The notes beneath the pieces were generated by a model. That model was not told the origin of the DNA. It made no database searches and worked only from the letters and a program-made list of their open reading frames with translations. The translations under genes were made by a program, and so were the position numbers. Of a stretch of DNA of 37,228 nucleotides, positions 3,328 through 19,873 are shown piece by piece. The first letter of the stretch is position 1. The number at the start of each line of letters is the position of its first letter. This DNA comes from Syntrophorhabdaceae bacterium (lineage in GTDB: Bacteria; Desulfobacterota; Syntrophorhabdia; Syntrophorhabdales; Syntrophorhabdaceae), in contig JAQTNJ010000009.1 of NCBI GenBank assembly GCA_028713955.1, positions 1 to 37,228 on the forward strand, in the 5' to 3' direction.

Positions 3328-5544
3328 TCAGTTCCCCGCCTTTATGTTCGTCGGCTCCGTGGAGTGGAGCCTGGACCAGGTGCTCCCGTTCCACTGGAAG
3401 AGGCCCGATGCCCAGGCAGCATATATGGTGTTGCTCCCTGCCGTCATGCTGGAGGGGACCGTTGCATGGAGCTTGGACCAGGCGCTCCCGTTCCACTGGA
3501 AGAGGCCCGATGGCCACGTGGCGTAGAGATTGGCGCTTCCTGCAACCATACCGGTGGGGACAGCAGCATGTATCTTCGTCCATGTAATGCCGTTCCACTG
3601 GTAGAGCCCTGATGCCCAGGTAGCGTAGAGGTTGGTGCTACCTGCAGCCATACCGGTGGGGACAGCAGCATGTATCTTCGTCCATGTAATGCCGTTCCAC
3701 TGGTAGAGCCCTGATGCCCAGGTAGCGTAAAGGGTGTTATTTCCCGCCGTCATTGCGGTGGGGACAGCAGCATGTATCTTCGTCCATGTAATGCCGTTCC
3801 ACGCATAGAGGCCCGATGCCCAGGTAGCGTAAAGGTTTGGACCTGAGGCGGCCATGTTTGTCGGAACAGCAGCATGTATCTTCGTCCATGTCGTGCCGTT
3901 CCACTGGTAGAGGCCTGATGCCCAGGTGGCGTAAAGGGCTGAGCCTGAAGCGGCCATGCTTGTCGGGACCATCGCGTGGAGCTTTGACCACGTGTTCCCG
4001 TTCTCTTGATAGAGGCCCGATGCCCAGGTGGCGTAGAGGGGGGAGGACGCTTCTGTGGTAAATCCTTTAAGACACACGTTGTCTTTATCATGGGTTCCAA
4101 GCGTTGTCAGGTCTGACCAGGGACTACCGCTGCTGCTGATGAAGCTCTGTCCGGCAGAGGCCGTAGCGCTACCCGAATAGTTCTCGATCCAATGCTCAAG
4201 CGAGATCGGATAGTTTGTGCCGGGCGCGGTCAGCTTGACGACGATGGAGAACCTTCCACCGGATGCGAGGTAAACCGGGGATGACAGGTCAATAGTCGTA
4301 TAGCCGGGATACTGTATCGTGCCTGTCTCCGTCGCGGCAAGCGTCCCGCTCCTGGGGACCCCTGCCGTTACCCCTGTGTAGATGTAGATCTCATAAGGAG
4401 AATTAGCCGAAGTATTGTGAAAACTGACGGCAACCAGACTTTCGCTCGCCTGTGCAGTAAAGATGTTGGCAAACCAGCCGGTTTCACTTGAATATCCTAT
4501 CTGAGACGTCCATCCAAGCGGGTCATATTGGTAGATGCGGCTGTAGTTTGTCACAGGTTCGGTATTGTAGAACAGGTAATTTGTTGTATATGCCAGCTTG
4601 GTATCATAATAGGAGATATAGAAATACCCCCCGTCGCCAAAACCAGACCCCCAGCTATTCCTGACAATAAAGGCTCCGTTCCCCGGGGGGGCGCTGGGAA
4701 AGTTTGCGCTGCTGTAATTATCATCCCAGCCCACGATTGCGACGGCATGGTTGGAGCCGGATGCACCGTAATAGTAGTAAGCGTATGTACCTTCATTATA
4801 ATAGCTTGCGTCCTGGCTTATATACATCGTTGCATAAACGGCGCCGGCCGACATGACGGCGTTCTTCAGATTGTCGTTGTCCGACGATGATGTGCGCTGC
4901 GGGATGTATATGACCCCCTGGACATGCTTCCTGGGCAAAAGCCCTGGAGGGGACACTCCTGAGCCGGCGTTGTAAGTATCGTCCGCTTCGTTGACGGGGC
5001 CGCTCCAGCGGGCGAGGTATGCCGTCGCCATGTCCCCGTTGCCTCCGCTGTCGTATCCCCAGTCGAACCCGTGCGTGTTCTTCATGTGGTTCTCGGAAAA
5101 ATCGTCTGTCTCGCCGGTGAGAAGGTTGGACTCCACCGAGCCATAGGTCGCGAAGGTCCAGCATGTATTGCCGGTACTCTGGTCCCTGACCGGCGTGAGC
5201 TTCCCCTGGGTTCTCAGGTCATACGAAACAGGAAATCCTAATCTGAGAGGGGCTTCTGCCAGCTCCTGGACCTGGGGGGCGCCAAAGATATTGATGCCTG
5301 CGAGGTAGTCAAGGTTCAGGGGCGAAGGGACCAACCCCAGGCCGCGGCCCTCATGGGTAACACCAGTCGCCATGACCCTTTCCTTCTGGAGGGCTTCCAT
5401 ATATGAAAGAAACTCAGGGTTCATCGGCGCGGAGACCAGCTCACCTTCCGCAAAGGCATAGCCGCCGCAGAGGGATTGCAACAGCATCAATGCAAAGGCT
5501 ATCAGAAGACAGGTTCTACAGATATTTCTTTTTGTTTTTTCCAT
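3328..5544 (-). CDS. Secreted C1A (papain-family) cysteine protease with lectin-like middle domain and seven C-terminal repeats, 738 aa
   Basis: Signal peptide at residues 1-32 (hydrophobic core, AFA cleavage site). A propeptide-like stretch runs to ~103. The peptidase domain runs from ~104 to 328: FPVSYDLR, oxyanion Gln122 and nucleophile Cys128 (DQSTGNTCWTFAT), catalytic His266 (SNHAVAIVGWDD) and Asn296 (VRNSWG), so all four active-site residues are present. Residues ~335-497 resemble the lectin-like beta-sandwich that follows many prokaryotic C1 peptidases. Residues 503-738 are seven consecutive 34-residue repeats of the type LYATWASGLYQWNG ... TWTKIHAAVP, the family shared with the neighbouring secreted proteins. 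The role is probably an extracellular or surface protease tethered by its repeats. A different frame stays open past the stop down to 3230 (see findings). Divergently arranged with the 5858-6838 gene. Confidence 0.9.
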   Translation of the reverse strand: MEKTKRNICRTCLLIAFALMLLQSLCGGYAFAEGELVSAPMNPEFLSYMEALQKERVMATGVTHEGRGLGLVPSPLNLDYLAGINIFGAPQVQELAEAPLRLGFPVSYDLRTQGKLTPVRDQSTGNTCWTFATYGSVESNLLTGETDDFSENHMKNTHGFDWGYDSGGNGDMATAYLARWSGPVNEADDTYNAGSGVSPPGLLPRKHVQGVIYIPQRTSSSDNDNLKNAVMSAGAVYATMYISQDASYYNEGTYAYYYYGASGSNHAVAIVGWDDNYSSANFPSAPPGNGAFIVRNSWGSGFGDGGYFYISYYDTKLAYTTNYLFYNTEPVTNYSRIYQYDPLGWTSQIGYSSETGWFANIFTAQASESLVAVSFHNTSANSPYEIYIYTGVTAGVPRSGTLAATETGTIQYPGYTTIDLSSPVYLASGGRFSIVVKLTAPGTNYPISLEHWIENYSGSATASAGQSFISSSGSPWSDLTTLGTHDKDNVCLKGFTTEASSPLYATWASGLYQENGNTWSKLHAMVPTSMAASGSALYATWASGLYQWNGTTWTKIHAAVPTNMAASGPNLYATWASGLYAWNGITWTKIHAAVPTAMTAGNNTLYATWASGLYQWNGITWTKIHAAVPTGMAAGSTNLYATWASGLYQWNGITWTKIHAAVPTGMVAGSANLYATWPSGLFQWNGSAWSKLHATVPSSMTAGSNTIYAAWASGLFQWNGSTWSRLHSTEPTNIKAGN
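3331..4038 (-). repeat. Seven tandem ~102-bp repeats encoding 34-aa modules
   Basis: The 3' third of the protease gene is a tandem array of seven 102-bp units. Several central units are almost identical at DNA level: the stretch around ATGTATCTTCGTCCATGTAA recurs in four adjacent units near 3569, 3671, 3773 and 3875. Such near-identity suggests recent expansion by recombination or slippage, and copy number may vary between strains or be misassembled. Confidence 0.9.
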
Positions 5545-11763: not shown

Positions 11764-12534
11764 CTATTTTTTACAATACCATCCAACGCTTTCTGAGAAA
11801 AGATTGAATGGAATAAAACGTCTTATTGGATAATCTAACAAATTAATAAATGTCTGTATCCAGAAAGGAAATCTTACATGGTTTAAGGTGATTCCTCTAA
11901 TACAAACTTTTTTAAAATTTGTTTCAGTAAGTATTTTGTTTAAACAAAGTGGTGAGATAGGTCTTTCTCCTTCCACTTTTCCTGTAACGTTACCCATAAT
12001 TTTATGCAAATAAGCAAAAATCCAGCTTATTGGGTACAATGAGGAGGGTTCGAGAATGGCCAACACCCCTCCTTTACGTAAGATTCTATAATACTCTCTT
12101 ACGAAAGGTTCAAATCCAATATCATGAACATGATGAAGAAACAGAGCGCAAATAATAATATCAAAAGACTCATCTTCATAACCAGAAGTTAAAATATCCC
12201 CTTCTTTTTTTGTTACTACGTTCGGACATTTACTAAGAGCTATCGGCGAAAGATCAATTCCGCAAATATTTTTATAAATACCTTGCAGATATTGTAAATC
12301 ATAGCCATCTCCTAAGGGTGCCATCAAAACATCGGCGCCATTTTTATAATACTCTTTTTTAATAAACCTATACAAAAAACTATAAAATCTTATTTTTTTT
12401 ACATGATTCTGCAACCAGTGTCTTTCACGAGAAGCAAATAACGGATGAGATGTCCAGTGGCCAGAATCTATATAAAACTTTTGTTCATGCCAGGCTTTTT
12501 CTACATCGAAATCCTGTCTCTTCGTTTCATCCAT
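11764..12534 (-). CDS. Class I SAM-dependent methyltransferase (Methyltransf_11-like), 256 aa
   Basis: Rossmann-type methyltransferase. Motif I is degenerate (MAPLGDGYDLQYL instead of the usual GxGxG), followed by the acidic motif II in CGIDLSPIAL, motif III EDESFDIIICALFLHHV and LRKGGVLAILEPSS. C-terminal residues ~170-256 are variable and aromatic, fitting a sugar-acceptor site. It probably methylates a sugar of the glycan or a precursor. The gene is noticeably AT-rich. It sits 56 bases downstream of the DUF362 gene. Confidence 0.82.
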   Translation of the reverse strand: MDETKRQDFDVEKAWHEQKFYIDSGHWTSHPLFASRERHWLQNHVKKIRFYSFLYRFIKKEYYKNGADVLMAPLGDGYDLQYLQGIYKNICGIDLSPIALSKCPNVVTKKEGDILTSGYEDESFDIIICALFLHHVHDIGFEPFVREYYRILRKGGVLAILEPSSLYPISWIFAYLHKIMGNVTGKVEGERPISPLCLNKILTETNFKKVCIRGITLNHVRFPFWIQTFINLLDYPIRRFIPFNLFSESVGWYCKK

Positions 12535-12590
12535 CGTTTCGTTAATTCTCTCCTTGTAAAGTAATAGTATAGTTAAAGTATCGATAATAA

Positions 12591-13571
12591 TTACTGAATG
12601 GGTCTCGTTCTAAATAGATACATGATATCATGTAGCAGTTTTGCCCATCTTGAGAAATAAAAAAAGTGTGTCAGTTTTTTGGAATGAAAGGCAGCAAGGG
12701 CCGGATAATTCCAAATATCTCTCTTTAAAGTAAACTTTCTCTTTAAAGTTTCTATATCACCAATAATTTTGACATCTTCTCTTTTAGGCAAATACCCGTA
12801 GTAATCAGCCATTTTCAAGTGACCGACACGCCACCAATTAAACCCCATCATTTCTGTGACAACCATATCAAAGGCACCAAGTGAATTGGAGGCAACAAGC
12901 CAGTTGATTTCTATCGGATCTCCCATCATGGGGCCATTATTGTCTAACCCATATTTTCCATCTAAAAAAGCATAACGAAACTTAAGTTTTTCGCAGACCT
13001 GTCCTATAATCTCATCAAATACATAGTGATTCTTAATTCTCATTGTATCGGGAAGGCAACCCCATTGATTCTTGAACGAAAGGGTGATTCCGGTCATACA
13101 ATGCACCTTCGGAAGTGGGCATGTGATAGAAAAATCAATATCAGTAAAAAACAACTCCGGCAAACGAACAGGATAAGGTTTGCCATATGCTTTAAGTTCA
13201 ATTTCTTGTGATGGAAGTTCTGAAAGGTTAACTATTTCAACATTCGGGTATGACTTCTCAATATTGTAAAAACCCATATTATGCATGGCCTCTGTCATAG
13301 AAAAACTGTTGTAACCGCCTTCGCCTTCACCAATATAGATTTTTGTGGAAGTATTGATCTCCCGTAAAGCAGCGACAAGCGCTTCTATAAATTCCTTCCT
13401 TGTTGTTACACCTTTTTTGTAAGTATTATATGTAAGGTTAGGCTTGATAAAAACAGCTTTAGCTTTTCTAAAATCCTCTTCAAAAGATAACGATGAGAAA
13501 GACTCGCCAAATTGTTTCACAAGTAAGTCGGGCGGTTCCATAAGCCTTCTAATATCAACGATTGCTTTCAT
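12591..13571 (-). CDS. DUF362 domain-containing protein, 326 aa
   Basis: Recognised by the family pattern: AVFIKPNLTYNTYKKGVTT near the N terminus, IYIGEGEGGYNSFSMTEAM, VNLSELPSQEIEL, then CPLPKVHCMTGITLSFKNQWG in the core. DUF362 proteins have no established reaction; many are associated with iron-sulfur clusters, but this one has no C-terminal ferredoxin module or CxxCxxC motif. Residues ~265-326 have an aromatic/basic tail (FHSKKLTHFFYFSRWAKLL) that could touch the membrane. It lies 4 bases from the GT4 gene at 13576, so it is clearly within the glycan operon. A role in redox or acyl/phosphoryl modification of the glycan is speculation. Confidence 0.85.
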   Translation of the reverse strand: MKAIVDIRRLMEPPDLLVKQFGESFSSLSFEEDFRKAKAVFIKPNLTYNTYKKGVTTRKEFIEALVAALREINTSTKIYIGEGEGGYNSFSMTEAMHNMGFYNIEKSYPNVEIVNLSELPSQEIELKAYGKPYPVRLPELFFTDIDFSITCPLPKVHCMTGITLSFKNQWGCLPDTMRIKNHYVFDEIIGQVCEKLKFRYAFLDGKYGLDNNGPMMGDPIEINWLVASNSLGAFDMVVTEMMGFNWWRVGHLKMADYYGYLPKREDVKIIGDIETLKRKFTLKRDIWNYPALAAFHSKKLTHFFYFSRWAKLLHDIMYLFRTRPIQ

Positions 13572-15014: not shown

Positions 15015-16013
15015 CTACAATGTCGGATGCGAGCGCTCAATCCATTCCCATGCCAGCCGCTGCGGGAGACAAGAACCAAAGAACCTTTCCCGTATCAGCG
15101 CATTAGCGTAGCCAGATTGTAAAAGAGCTGTGCCGAAACTAAATGCGCCAGCCAGTTTGTTTCCTGCCGCAAAATACAAGGCTCGTGCATTAGCCCAGTT
15201 ACTACGCCTTTCAAATACCCCTGATTCTTGAATCCGCTTCTCAACCCAAGATAAAAACTCATTCCATTCATTTTCACTTCCATTGACAGATGGGTCTTTG
15301 TAACCCGCCTTTTGCATAAAATGGCAGATTGTTGCTAAGCTGCCATAAAAAAGCTGTCTCCGTCCGCGATCATCGTTAGAAATTTGAGCCGTATGTTTTC
15401 TGTTTCGAACAAGCGGAATAGGCAAGCAAGCAATTTGACCTCGCATTGACATTTCCAACCATAACCGCCGATCTTGTGCTCTGTGAAATCTCTTATTATA
15501 TCCACCTACCTGTCTTGCCGTATCGGAACGATAAAAAGCAGATGAATGAGGGAAAAACCGTTGCAACCTTTCCAGATGGCGCAATAGCACCTGGTGGTTG
15601 GTTGGATAGATATGTCTTTTAATCACACGGCTATTCTCATCGATTTCAAGAAAACCGGTGCCAAGAAGTATCACATCGGCATGTTTACGGACAAAGTTCA
15701 TCTGCTCCTCAAGCCGTTTCGTTTCGCAGAGATCATCCGCATCTAAACGGGCGATCCATTTTCCTCTGGCATGTGCAATACCCACATTGAGAGAATCGGC
15801 TAGTCCCGTATTGTTCTTGGATATGGCCACGATGCGTTCATCCCTATCGCGATAACTCTGTATTATTTTCCACGTTTCATCTGTTGAGCCATCATCAACT
15901 ATCATAAACTCATAATCTTCAAATGTCTGTGCCAGCACGCTGTCTATAGCCTCTCGCAACCAACGATCTGCATTGTGGCAAGACATAAGGACGGATATTT
16001 CCACGTATTGCAT
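15015..16013 (-). CDS. GT2-family glycosyltransferase, 332 aa
   Basis: GT-A fold inverting transferase: ISVLMSCHNADRWLREAIDSVLAQ, the first Asp pair in MIVDDGSTDET, the metal-binding ARLDADDLC motif, and the C-terminal helix with AQDRRLWLEMSMRG, which is the ED-like catalytic base region with Asp in AQD. A variable C-terminal segment of ~110 residues follows, as in many O-antigen GT2 proteins. Only 2 bases separate it from the radical SAM-GT2 fusion gene upstream, suggesting coupled translation. It ends with a TAG stop. Confidence 0.9.
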   Translation of the reverse strand: MQYVEISVLMSCHNADRWLREAIDSVLAQTFEDYEFMIVDDGSTDETWKIIQSYRDRDERIVAISKNNTGLADSLNVGIAHARGKWIARLDADDLCETKRLEEQMNFVRKHADVILLGTGFLEIDENSRVIKRHIYPTNHQVLLRHLERLQRFFPHSSAFYRSDTARQVGGYNKRFHRAQDRRLWLEMSMRGQIACLPIPLVRNRKHTAQISNDDRGRRQLFYGSLATICHFMQKAGYKDPSVNGSENEWNEFLSWVEKRIQESGVFERRSNWANARALYFAAGNKLAGAFSFGTALLQSGYANALIRERFFGSCLPQRLAWEWIERSHPTL

Positions 16014-16015
16014 TT

Positions 16016-18196
16016 TCAGATTCGCTTAATCCGATTAATTAGGCTGGAAAAAAATGAATACGAACTGGGAGGCAAAAATGTTGCACACCAAAAAATAAGA
16101 TATTTCAGACTACTATATTGTTTGAATGCATGGAAGAAGTGAGAGCGAGCTAAACGAAATTTACGAGCACGTAGTTTGGCTCTACCGAAGAAATAATTGA
16201 CAACAGCTTCTTCCTTTTTGCCAATTTGTCTCTGATCGGACCGACGGCTATGGCATAATGTCGACAGCCCTAGTAGATTATTCTCAAAACGAAGCTGTAA
16301 AGCTTGAAACACGAAAGTGGTATCAGCATTTGAACATTCAGTTCCTATAATAACCGATGGGAATACCCTTATTGGTTTATAACGCACAAGCTTTGCAATG
16401 AAATCCCAAAGATATGCTGTTCCAAAGATGCTGTCAACTCCACCAATCTGCCTAAAGTAGTAATTAGAACATCCCCATACTCTACGGTCTATCTGTTTTC
16501 CAAAATCAAACCAAGATCTTAACTCAATCAAACTATTTACCAATGTAGGCTTTCTTACGCCATCTGATCGGAAAACCCCTGAAACATTATTCATCAGTTC
16601 TCGTTGAAAGTCATGTAAAGTCTCGGCAGCAATATTTTCATCAAACTCTGCAAACAAAAGGTACTCTGATCTTGTTTGCAACACATTATTCAGCATATCA
16701 ATTTCCTGGGTGGGGTGCACGGTTCTGATGGTAAATGGATATTTATGGTTCAGTTTAGTCAATTCCAATACCACGTCATCGTCTCCGCTACAATTAATAA
16801 TGAACAAGTCAGGATTGCCTAATTTATTTTTAATATCAAGTATTTTATCCACTAAACCTTTGCAATATTTTTTGATAATTAGTACTAATGTTGTTATCGC
16901 AGCATTTTTGGAATGTTCTTTTCCCATTTTCTTCATTAGTACGGGCAGCATAACATTTGCGGTGTCTTCTACGCCAACCGGGATCTTATAATCTTCTCCT
17001 CCTACAAATCTATCAACTAAATCGTTGTGATTCTTCTGGTATATCATACCATTTGATGTAATCTTGGCGTAGTTATCATCCTGTATAAGCTGCCAATAAA
17101 AAGAGCTAAATGGTATACCAGTGAAAACACCCGTGCCAAAAGAGTATGGTTTAAGCCTGTGAGCAAAAAGGAAAGTCTCGTATCGTTCTTCGTCGGTCTC
17201 AGTTGGCACCCCGAGAACAAAACTTAAATAACAACGTATACCTGCTTTTCTCGACCAATTGATAACGTTTTCAACTTGTTCAAGAGTAATTCCTTTTCTC
17301 ATGTAATCCAATACTCGCTGCGATCCACTTTCGGCACCTATATAAAATCCCCGGCAACCTGCCATCCCCATTAGTTTGACCATATCTTCAGTTAATGTAT
17401 TTGCCCTCGTTTCACAAATCCATGGGAGATCTATGTGTCTTGACAACATCTCCCCGCAAAACTCTTGTATACGCTTACGATTCAGAGTAAAGTTATCTTC
17501 TCGAAAATATATGCCTTGAGCATTAAAGTCCTTTTTCAATCGTAATATCTCTTCAATGATTCTTACAGCAGACTGGTATCTATAACGATTACCCCATATA
17601 GAACTAACAGAACAAAATTGGCAAGAAAATGGACATCCTCGGCTAGTATTCAAGGTAAGTACACTGTTCTTATTAATCCACGCATTCCTAAAATCATAGG
17701 GTAATGAAATAAATTCTTCATAAGGTATAAACGGTAAGTTATCCATATCTTGAACTTTAATTCCATCTATGATACGGGAAAAATGTTCTCCATTCGCTAT
17801 TTGACAAATTTTTTCTTCACCTTCACCCTTAACAATATAGTCCACAAACTCCGGAATAGATTCTGGAAAGACAGAGGGGTGAGGCCCTCCTACAACAATC
17901 TTACCAGACCATTTTGTTTCTTCACGAAGTTTCTGGGCTATCTTTAGCAGAGCAATACCTCCCGCATAACATATTGTGTTCATAGAGACTGCAAAAAGGT
18001 CTATTGACTGACCGGCTAAAATTGACCCTATCTCACTGATGGAAGTTGAATTCAAATAGAGGTCCCTGAAAACAACTTTGTGGCCACTATTGCGAAGGAC
18101 TGAGATAAGGTACCCCAAGCCCAAGGGTGGCGTTTTTTCCAAAGTCGAAAATGAAGTTTGCTCAATTACAGGGGAAGTTGCTAGAAGAATTTTCAT
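16016..18196 (-). CDS. B12-binding radical SAM protein fused to a C-terminal GT2-like domain, 726 aa
   Basis: Residues 1-130 form a cobalamin-binding-like domain (PPLGLGYLISVLRNSGHKVV, KIVVGGPHPSVFPE; no D-x-H-x-x-G). The radical SAM core follows at ~180-400 with the 4Fe-4S cluster motif C188-x3-C192-x2-C195 (GCPFSCQFC), YFREDNF, AESGSQRVL and VLGVPTETDEE. From ~460 the protein becomes GT2-like: DLFIINCSGDDDVVLEL, EYLLFAEFDENIAAETL where transferases carry their Asp-rich motif, then SNYYFRQIGGVDSIFGTAYL and WDFIAKLVR, the pattern of the GT2 acceptor helix. Residues 660-726 resemble the helical tail (AVVNYFFGRAKLRARKFRLA) of GT2 proteins. B12 radical SAM enzymes of this kind typically methylate unactivated carbon or phosphorus. 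The fused domain may bind a glycan acceptor; its Asp motif looks degenerate. Confidence 0.85.
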   Translation of the reverse strand: MKILLATSPVIEQTSFSTLEKTPPLGLGYLISVLRNSGHKVVFRDLYLNSTSISEIGSILAGQSIDLFAVSMNTICYAGGIALLKIAQKLREETKWSGKIVVGGPHPSVFPESIPEFVDYIVKGEGEEKICQIANGEHFSRIIDGIKVQDMDNLPFIPYEEFISLPYDFRNAWINKNSVLTLNTSRGCPFSCQFCSVSSIWGNRYRYQSAVRIIEEILRLKKDFNAQGIYFREDNFTLNRKRIQEFCGEMLSRHIDLPWICETRANTLTEDMVKLMGMAGCRGFYIGAESGSQRVLDYMRKGITLEQVENVINWSRKAGIRCYLSFVLGVPTETDEERYETFLFAHRLKPYSFGTGVFTGIPFSSFYWQLIQDDNYAKITSNGMIYQKNHNDLVDRFVGGEDYKIPVGVEDTANVMLPVLMKKMGKEHSKNAAITTLVLIIKKYCKGLVDKILDIKNKLGNPDLFIINCSGDDDVVLELTKLNHKYPFTIRTVHPTQEIDMLNNVLQTRSEYLLFAEFDENIAAETLHDFQRELMNNVSGVFRSDGVRKPTLVNSLIELRSWFDFGKQIDRRVWGCSNYYFRQIGGVDSIFGTAYLWDFIAKLVRYKPIRVFPSVIIGTECSNADTTFVFQALQLRFENNLLGLSTLCHSRRSDQRQIGKKEEAVVNYFFGRAKLRARKFRLARSHFFHAFKQYSSLKYLIFWCATFLPPSSYSFFSSLINRIKRI

Positions 18197-19183: not shown

Positions 19184-19873
19184 TTATTTTTTTATCGCCA
19201 CGCAATGCCAGCCAAAACAGGCGAGATCATCCGCCTTCCTACCGCCCCGCACCTTAAAATACAATAAACCCAAGATACCCAAGACGTAGGCCAACGGCCA
19301 GTTCCAGTTACCGCACTGACGTTCCATTCCGCCCAGGCGTATGAGTTCCTGCCGGAGGTAGGCATACCAGTCCCCGTTGGGAATTAGCTCTACAATCTCA
19401 AAACCACACAGGTTCAAATGGTGCTCATACCAGTACTTGGAAAACCCCGTACAATAGTGGTACGGAGCCATGTGCACCAGCGAAGCAAAGGGGGCCGTAA
19501 GAATCAGGGTGCCTCCTGGTTTTAGCAATCGTGCAAATTCATCGAGGGCATGGGTGGGCTCGGGAATATGCTCCAGTACTTCACTGCACAGGATAGCATC
19601 GAAAGAGGAATTCGGTTCCGGGATTATGGCAATGTCGCACACCAAATCAATCTGGCTAGTATCCCATTTTCCAGTTTGCAGACCCTTGCCATCTCCCCCG
19701 CCCGCATATTGACAGAAGTCCTGAGAGACATAAGAAAGATGGTTGCACAGCGGTCGATTGCGCAACTCACCAGCCCCGACATCGATAATGCGCGCCCCTT
19801 TCGGCAGAATAGAAAGCGTTTTCTTCAACCAAGCTTGGCGATTATTTTCATTGATGTTAGTGTAAATCTTCAT
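19184..19873 (-). CDS. Class I SAM-dependent methyltransferase, 229 aa
   Basis: Motif I is IIDVGAGELRNRPL, motif II VSQDFCQYAGGG, motif III SFDAILCSEVLEHIPEP and motif IV LKPGGTLILTAPFASLVHM, as in Methyltransf_11/25 proteins. The C-terminal part (HHLNLCGFEIVELIPNGDWYAYLRQEL) fits families found in polysaccharide loci. A hydrophobic stretch near residues ~195-208 (PLAYVLGILGLLYFKV) suggests membrane contact. Probably acts on the glycan or a lipid-linked intermediate. It precedes the GT11 gene with a 27-base gap. Confidence 0.85.
   Translation of the reverse strand: MKIYTNINENNRQAWLKKTLSILPKGARIIDVGAGELRNRPLCNHLSYVSQDFCQYAGGGDGKGLQTGKWDTSQIDLVCDIAIIPEPNSSFDAILCSEVLEHIPEPTHALDEFARLLKPGGTLILTAPFASLVHMAPYHYCTGFSKYWYEHHLNLCGFEIVELIPNGDWYAYLRQELIRLGGMERQCGNWNWPLAYVLGILGLLYFKVRGGRKADDLACFGWHCVAIKK

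Follow-up and report, generated by a model that had tools for sequence, protein, structure and literature searches.

A B12-binding radical SAM protein joined to a degenerate GT2-like domain, from a radical SAM family usually followed by GT2 glycosyltransferases

Introduction

In apramycin biosynthesis, AprD4 removes a sugar hydroxyl (deoxygenation) (PMC5461906), and in the gentamicin pathway GenK and GenD1 carry out cobalamin radical SAM C-methylation of sugar carbons (PMC4340712, PMC5461906). Branched-chain sugars are also found in bacterial surface glycans, such as the 3-C-methylmannose of a Helicobacter pylori O-antigen (PMC12961483). Flagellin, in turn, is glycosylated by Maf proteins, whose Maf_flag10 domain corresponds to pfam01973 (PMC11339370).

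Here, we report the analysis of a gene encoding a 726-residue protein within a stretch of 37,228 nucleotides from a Syntrophorhabdaceae bacterium (assembly GCA_028713955.1, contig JAQTNJ010000009.1), hereafter called the window. A sequence-only reading of this DNA had proposed a B12-binding radical SAM enzyme fused to a degenerate GT2-like domain, acting either as a C-methyltransferase steered by a glycan-binding pseudo-glycosyltransferase or as a two-step enzyme. The features discussed below are listed in Table 1.

Table 1. Features of the 726-residue protein and its adjoining genes, with positions in the window
Feature	Residues	Position	Strand	Basis
Whole gene: B12-binding radical SAM unit and degenerate GT2-like domain	1-726	16016..18196	minus	frame, Pfam, codon usage
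B12-binding domain (PF02310)	21-132	17801..18136	minus	Pfam, E 1.5e-10
Radical SAM core (PF04055)	183-344	17165..17650	minus	Pfam, E 1.4e-25, 90.8 bits
CxxxCxxC [4Fe-4S] motif, C188/C192/C195	188-195	17612..17635	minus	sequence; invariant in family alignment
GT2-like (GT-A) core, catalytically eroded	426-660	16217..16921	minus	profile tests, aligned model
FAEFDENI; DxD position is E517-F518-D519	515-522	16631..16654	minus	GT2 alignment
AYLWD; L596 in place of the catalytic-base Asp, D598 kept	594-598	16403..16417	minus	GT2 alignment
Helical tail of the type seen at the C-terminus of GT2 proteins	641-726	16019..16276	minus	tail profiles
GT2 gene that follows the 726-residue gene after 2 bp; motifs intact		15015..16013	minus	Pfam, alignment
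GT11-family gene directly upstream of the 726-residue gene; same order in L024/L033 and L031		18263..19156	minus	Pfam
Class I SAM methyltransferase gene, upstream of the GT11 gene		19184..19873	minus	Pfam

Results

A single coding sequence with a class B radical SAM unit

The 726-residue frame is open throughout, with zero internal stops. Because the codon usage of both halves of the gene is that of the neighbouring genes in its own frame only, and because no GT2 fragment was found in the other frames of its C-terminal region, the gene is one real coding sequence; two genes joined by a frameshift or an artefact, a danger that the sequence-only reading had itself raised, are ruled out. The observation behind that reading is confirmed and its interpretation partly supported: Pfam domains at one end and the whole-domain profile test described below at the other show a single chain made of a B12 radical SAM unit and a degenerate GT2-like domain.

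The radical SAM unit (residues 1-412) has both features of class B cobalamin-dependent radical SAM enzymes, an N-terminal B12-binding domain (41.4 bits for PF02310, against a Pfam cut-off of 32.1) and a core with the CxxxCxxC motif. Compared with 33 other members of its family, the protein retains 56 of 58 near-invariant residues over residues 1-410, and its identity to the tight family is about 42-50% over ~410 residues. The best NCBIfam matches of the unit are the BchE, ladderane and hopanoid (HpnJ) enzymes, all far under their cut-offs, and the protein is also below the curated cut-offs of the AprD4 family NF033070 (93 bits against 500) and of TIGR04295, B12_rSAM_oligo (69.1 bits against 400). 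The nearest solved sequence to the family profile is that of AprD4 (PDB 6fd2, E 1.7e-34). Sequence alone decides neither for a methylase nor for a dehydratase/deoxygenase. In a maximum-likelihood tree the window unit sits on a long branch (1.03, the median being 0.2), which could mean that its function is altered or relaxed.

GT2 likeness of the C-terminal domain

Searches of Pfam, NCBIfam and PDB sequences found nothing that matches residues 413-726, the C-terminal ~300 residues of the protein, and PF00535 or related GT2 family models do not match residues 440-726. Local searches of the GT2-like core with HMMER, BLAST and hhalign gave nothing significant, hhalign with the single C-terminal sequence gave nothing, and pairwise global alignments with free ends gave no informative signal; the non-significant local profile matches of the domain nevertheless fall collinearly on the two correct places. 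No convincing homologue of the domain was found in 395 genomes of the phylum, in a GTDB pattern scan or in viral contigs. Among the weak matches in the 395 genomes, two that were examined in full (L118 and L120) have no GT2 core and were judged to be due to chance.

When its whole length is scored against a profile built from 133 GT2 domains, the C-terminal domain reaches z = 6.3 over its own shuffles, none of 1000 shuffles scoring as high, and it ranks third against 832 decoy pieces, both higher pieces also matching the GT2 profile in hmmsearch. With a profile of three GT2 proteins including their tails, picked by eye for similar-looking tails, it scores above all 825 decoys (z = 6.5). Profiles built on the first GT2 of the fused proteins described below, with stand-alone partners added, and on their second GT2 give z = 4.6 and z = 4.4, respectively. 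The three-tail GT2 profile ranks the window tail first (E 9e-5) and, when this tail is used as the query, five of the eight proteins matched at E < ~0.05 are GT2s, which make up 7% of the set. These tail tests are supporting and non-independent, since the three GT2s had been selected by eye and some of the set had been retrieved with the tail. A GG(V/F)D acceptor-side motif (GGxD) is also present and, with the helical tail, supports the sequence-only reading.

The AlphaFold check suggested by that reading had a mixed outcome. From the single sequence the domain was modelled with a pLDDT of only 34. With 25 GT2 rows in the alignment the pLDDT rose to 68.5, most of the first 110 residues scoring 76-89, and the model matched GT2 structures, but the rows bias it towards GT-A, making it a matter of consistency and not of proof. 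The best Foldseek match of this aligned model is ArnC (3e-8), VIA aligns it with chondroitin polymerase (K4CP; Z 16.4, 225 aligned, 3.6 A), and it also matches dolichyl-phosphate mannose synthase, SpsA and GtrB. Nearly all the Foldseek and VIA matches listed are glycosyltransferases, and no other fold is suggested by them. Because of the whole-domain profile test, the GT2-type tail and the alignment-guided model, we read residues 426-726 as a probable divergent GT-A/GT2 domain with a GT2 tail, for which there is fair support.

Eroded catalytic residues

Alignment with GT2 domains bears out that the Asp-rich motif is altered and adds two further changes. At the DxD position, E517 is a conservative Asp to Glu change and D519, the second and best conserved Asp (124/133 GT2 domains), is retained. 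The catalytic-base position is Asp in 125 of the 133 domains and Leu in none of them; in the window protein it is L596. Finally, the nucleotide-site Asp-Asp reads N468-C469. Since DxD has become ExD, the base Asp a leucine and the nucleotide-site pair Asn-Cys, the C-terminal domain is likely a pseudo-GT2. Some binding of metal or donor would be possible, with D519 and E517 remaining. The adjoining GT2 gene (15015-16013) retains LDADD and AQD.

Partial erosion of DxD recurs in clusters of this radical SAM family. DAGD replaces DADD in GT2s of L040 (10290-11285) and L056 (3530-4549), which are not directly beside the radical SAM gene, and EAQD replaces it in the first fused GT2 of L047; the base is kept in all three.

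A radical SAM family followed by GT2 domains or genes

A GTDB scan with an alignment of four members yielded 115 loci, of which 80 were kept and 33 form a tight family (~42-50% identity over ~400 residues); these counts, which come from exact-pattern scanning, are lower bounds. One locus (L057) is cut by a contig end, leaving 32 that are assessable. Eleven more loci of the family came from viral contigs, and L106 (4977-7817) and L108 (3-2726) encode rSAM-GT2-GT2 fusions on contigs classed as viral (IMG/VR).

The radical SAM unit and GT2 domains form an in-frame fusion in 16/32 assessable GTDB loci, and a GT2 gene lies directly downstream of the radical SAM gene in 12/32; the exceptions, with neither arrangement, are L040, L052, L056 and L059. 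This radical SAM family thus usually has a GT2 for its neighbour, be it the following gene or the following domain. The sequence-only reading knew of no described enzyme with this layout. We likewise found no description of an rSAM-GT2 fusion in the open-access literature, which was partially covered, but the basic layout is not unique to the window: the degenerate fusion is apparently the sole case of its kind in an architecture that recurs and that seems not to have been described.

The fused proteins range from about 1260 to >3100 residues. Pfam finds the radical SAM domain followed by GT2 in every one submitted, with a core unit rSAM-GT2-GT2 in all those so examined, and some add further GT2, other glycosyltransferase, TPR or methyltransferase domains. 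The first GT2 is intact in all fused GTDB members but L047. In two giant proteins, of L022 (5606-13915, 2769 aa) and L039 (5849-15184, >3112 aa), the B12 radical SAM unit is joined to five or six GT2 and other glycosyltransferase domains, together with TPRs in L022, a layout like a one-chain glycan assembly line. Immediately upstream of the radical SAM gene there is often a gene for a class I SAM methyltransferase (L026, L028, L032, L035, L044, L048, L054, L055), and a methyltransferase is fused to the radical SAM unit in L037 and L046.

When 44 radical SAM units are placed in a maximum-likelihood tree, 17 fused members form one clade (98/97) that excludes the window unit. The tree thus places the window gene outside the clade and speaks against its being a degenerate descendant of it. 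This is weakened by the long branch, given which the window fusion may share ancestry with the fused clade.

Flagellar neighbourhoods

In Nitrospirota, the gene for a fused methyltransferase-B12 rSAM-GT2-GT2 protein has flagellin/FliD genes on one side and a PF01973 (Maf-type) gene on the other (L037, 38-12250; L046, 136-12413). The fused rSAM-GT2 gene is also followed, a short way downstream, by a FliD-like gene in L049 (12241-12882), L050 (10843-11427) and L053 (10535-11197), L049 and L053 being Planctomycetota. That fused relatives adjoin flagellin, FliD and Maf-type genes suggests that the rSAM-GT2 module also serves flagellin glycosylation.

Neighbourhood of the window gene

The GT2 encoded at 15015-16013 is mostly 32-42% identical to the GT2 partners of relatives and is of the same type; in the window the family trait of a GT2 as next gene or domain is carried by this gene. 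The GT2-like domain is not a recent copy of it (BLASTP between them, E about 1). In a genome of the same family (G018/L024), a GT11 gene, a gene for a stand-alone radical SAM protein of 457 residues and a GT2 gene follow each other in the same order, and likewise in L033. Among the genes of the wider cluster are a weak polymerase match, a flippase, a phosphoglycosyl transferase, GT4, GT11 and GT2 glycosyltransferases, GDP-sugar genes including GDP-mannose dehydratase, epimerases and several methyltransferases; by its predicted gene content it is a lipid-linked surface-polysaccharide cluster. A DUF362-family gene also lies within it (12591-13571), and a DUF362 gene is found near the L037 fusion too (12400-13383). 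A papain-family peptidase with a lectin-like domain is encoded at the edge of the cluster (3328-5544).

Discussion

We propose that the 726-residue protein belongs to a conserved rSAM-GT2 module and is a B12 radical SAM enzyme that modifies sugars, in which a dead GT2 serves as a docking or glycan-holding domain, a proposal to which we give an even chance. The C-terminal domain would no longer transfer sugar. It would keep the radical enzyme close both to the partner GT2 (15015-16013) and to the lipid-linked glycan under construction, and might itself bind the acceptor. The radical SAM unit would alter an unactivated carbon of the glycan, by C-methylation or by a deoxygenation like that of AprD4, while the repeat unit has yet to be flipped and polymerised. 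As to its history, a radical SAM gene would have captured an additional copy of a GT2 that then lost catalysis, likely independently of the fused clade.

The GT2-like domain might have no function at all and be a decaying relic, the work being done by the radical SAM unit and the separate GT2. The loss of catalytic residues fits this, as do the absence of a homologue of the domain from the phylum genomes, the GTDB pattern scan and the viral contigs, and the fact that relatives work without such a domain. We nevertheless find it rather doubtful, as the frame has stayed open over 314 residues with normal codon usage, and the core pattern, the GGxD motif and the tail can still be recognised from end to end. 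That the domain is instead an active, if unusual, glycosyltransferase, making the protein the two-step enzyme envisaged as an alternative by the sequence-only reading, is very unlikely, because besides the change in DxD it has neither the catalytic base nor the nucleotide-site aspartates. The retained D519 and the conservative E517 would favour activity, and GT2s of related clusters vary at DxD too, but these variants (L040, L056, L047) retain the base, for which leucine has no precedent among the aligned GT2 domains.

It is just as improbable that the C-terminal region is an orphan domain unrelated to GT2. The lack of a significant local match in any library and the failure of the single-sequence AlphaFold model would agree with an orphan; the whole-domain scores exceed those of all shuffles and of nearly all decoys, the motifs are collinear and correctly spaced, and the GT2 tail was found separately. 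Another reading concerns the substrate of the radical SAM unit, which could be a lipid carrier, a nucleotide sugar or another compound of the cluster, the linkage to GT2 being incidental. The wider B12 radical SAM superfamily does act on many substrates, as the BchE, ladderane and hopanoid matches recall, but a GT2 is adjacent or fused in 28/32 loci and the neighbourhoods are those of glycan or flagellar genes, which makes this reading unlikely.

More broadly, the docking or glycan-holding proposal can be extended, tentatively and with less confidence, to a widespread undescribed module: a B12 radical SAM enzyme, physically joined to glycosyltransferases, would methylate or deoxygenate sugar carbons during chain building, on lipid-linked repeat units and on flagellin, and in the window the joined glycosyltransferase would have turned into a dead domain that holds the acceptor and steers the radical enzyme. 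The ties of this radical SAM family to glycosyltransferases by fusion and gene order provide concrete genes in which radical modification of glycans, including that of flagellin, can be tested. The degenerate domain is a candidate pseudo-glycosyltransferase targeting module and, if it is one, a way to give a radical enzyme its substrate.

Among described enzymes, AprD4 resembles the window protein as a B12-type radical SAM enzyme that acts on a sugar and as the closest solved sequence, but it has no GT2 domain, and the window protein is below the cut-off of its family. GenK and GenD1, likened here by description and not by sequence, are also cobalamin radical SAM enzymes acting on sugars, but stand-alone ones of antibiotic pathways. 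The C-terminal model is closest in fold to the bacterial GT2s K4CP, ArnC, SpsA and GtrB. These transferases are active and have both a metal-binding motif and a base, while the window domain has ExD and no base. The fused B12-rSAM-GT2-GT2 proteins (L028, L036, L037, L045, L053 and others), of deltaproteobacterial, Nitrospirota and Planctomycetota origin, share with the window protein the same radical SAM family (~42-47% identity over residues 1-410) and a GT2 as the next domain. They differ from it in forming a separate clade, in often having further GT2, TPR or methyltransferase domains and, L047 excepted, in a first GT2 that keeps its catalytic motifs.
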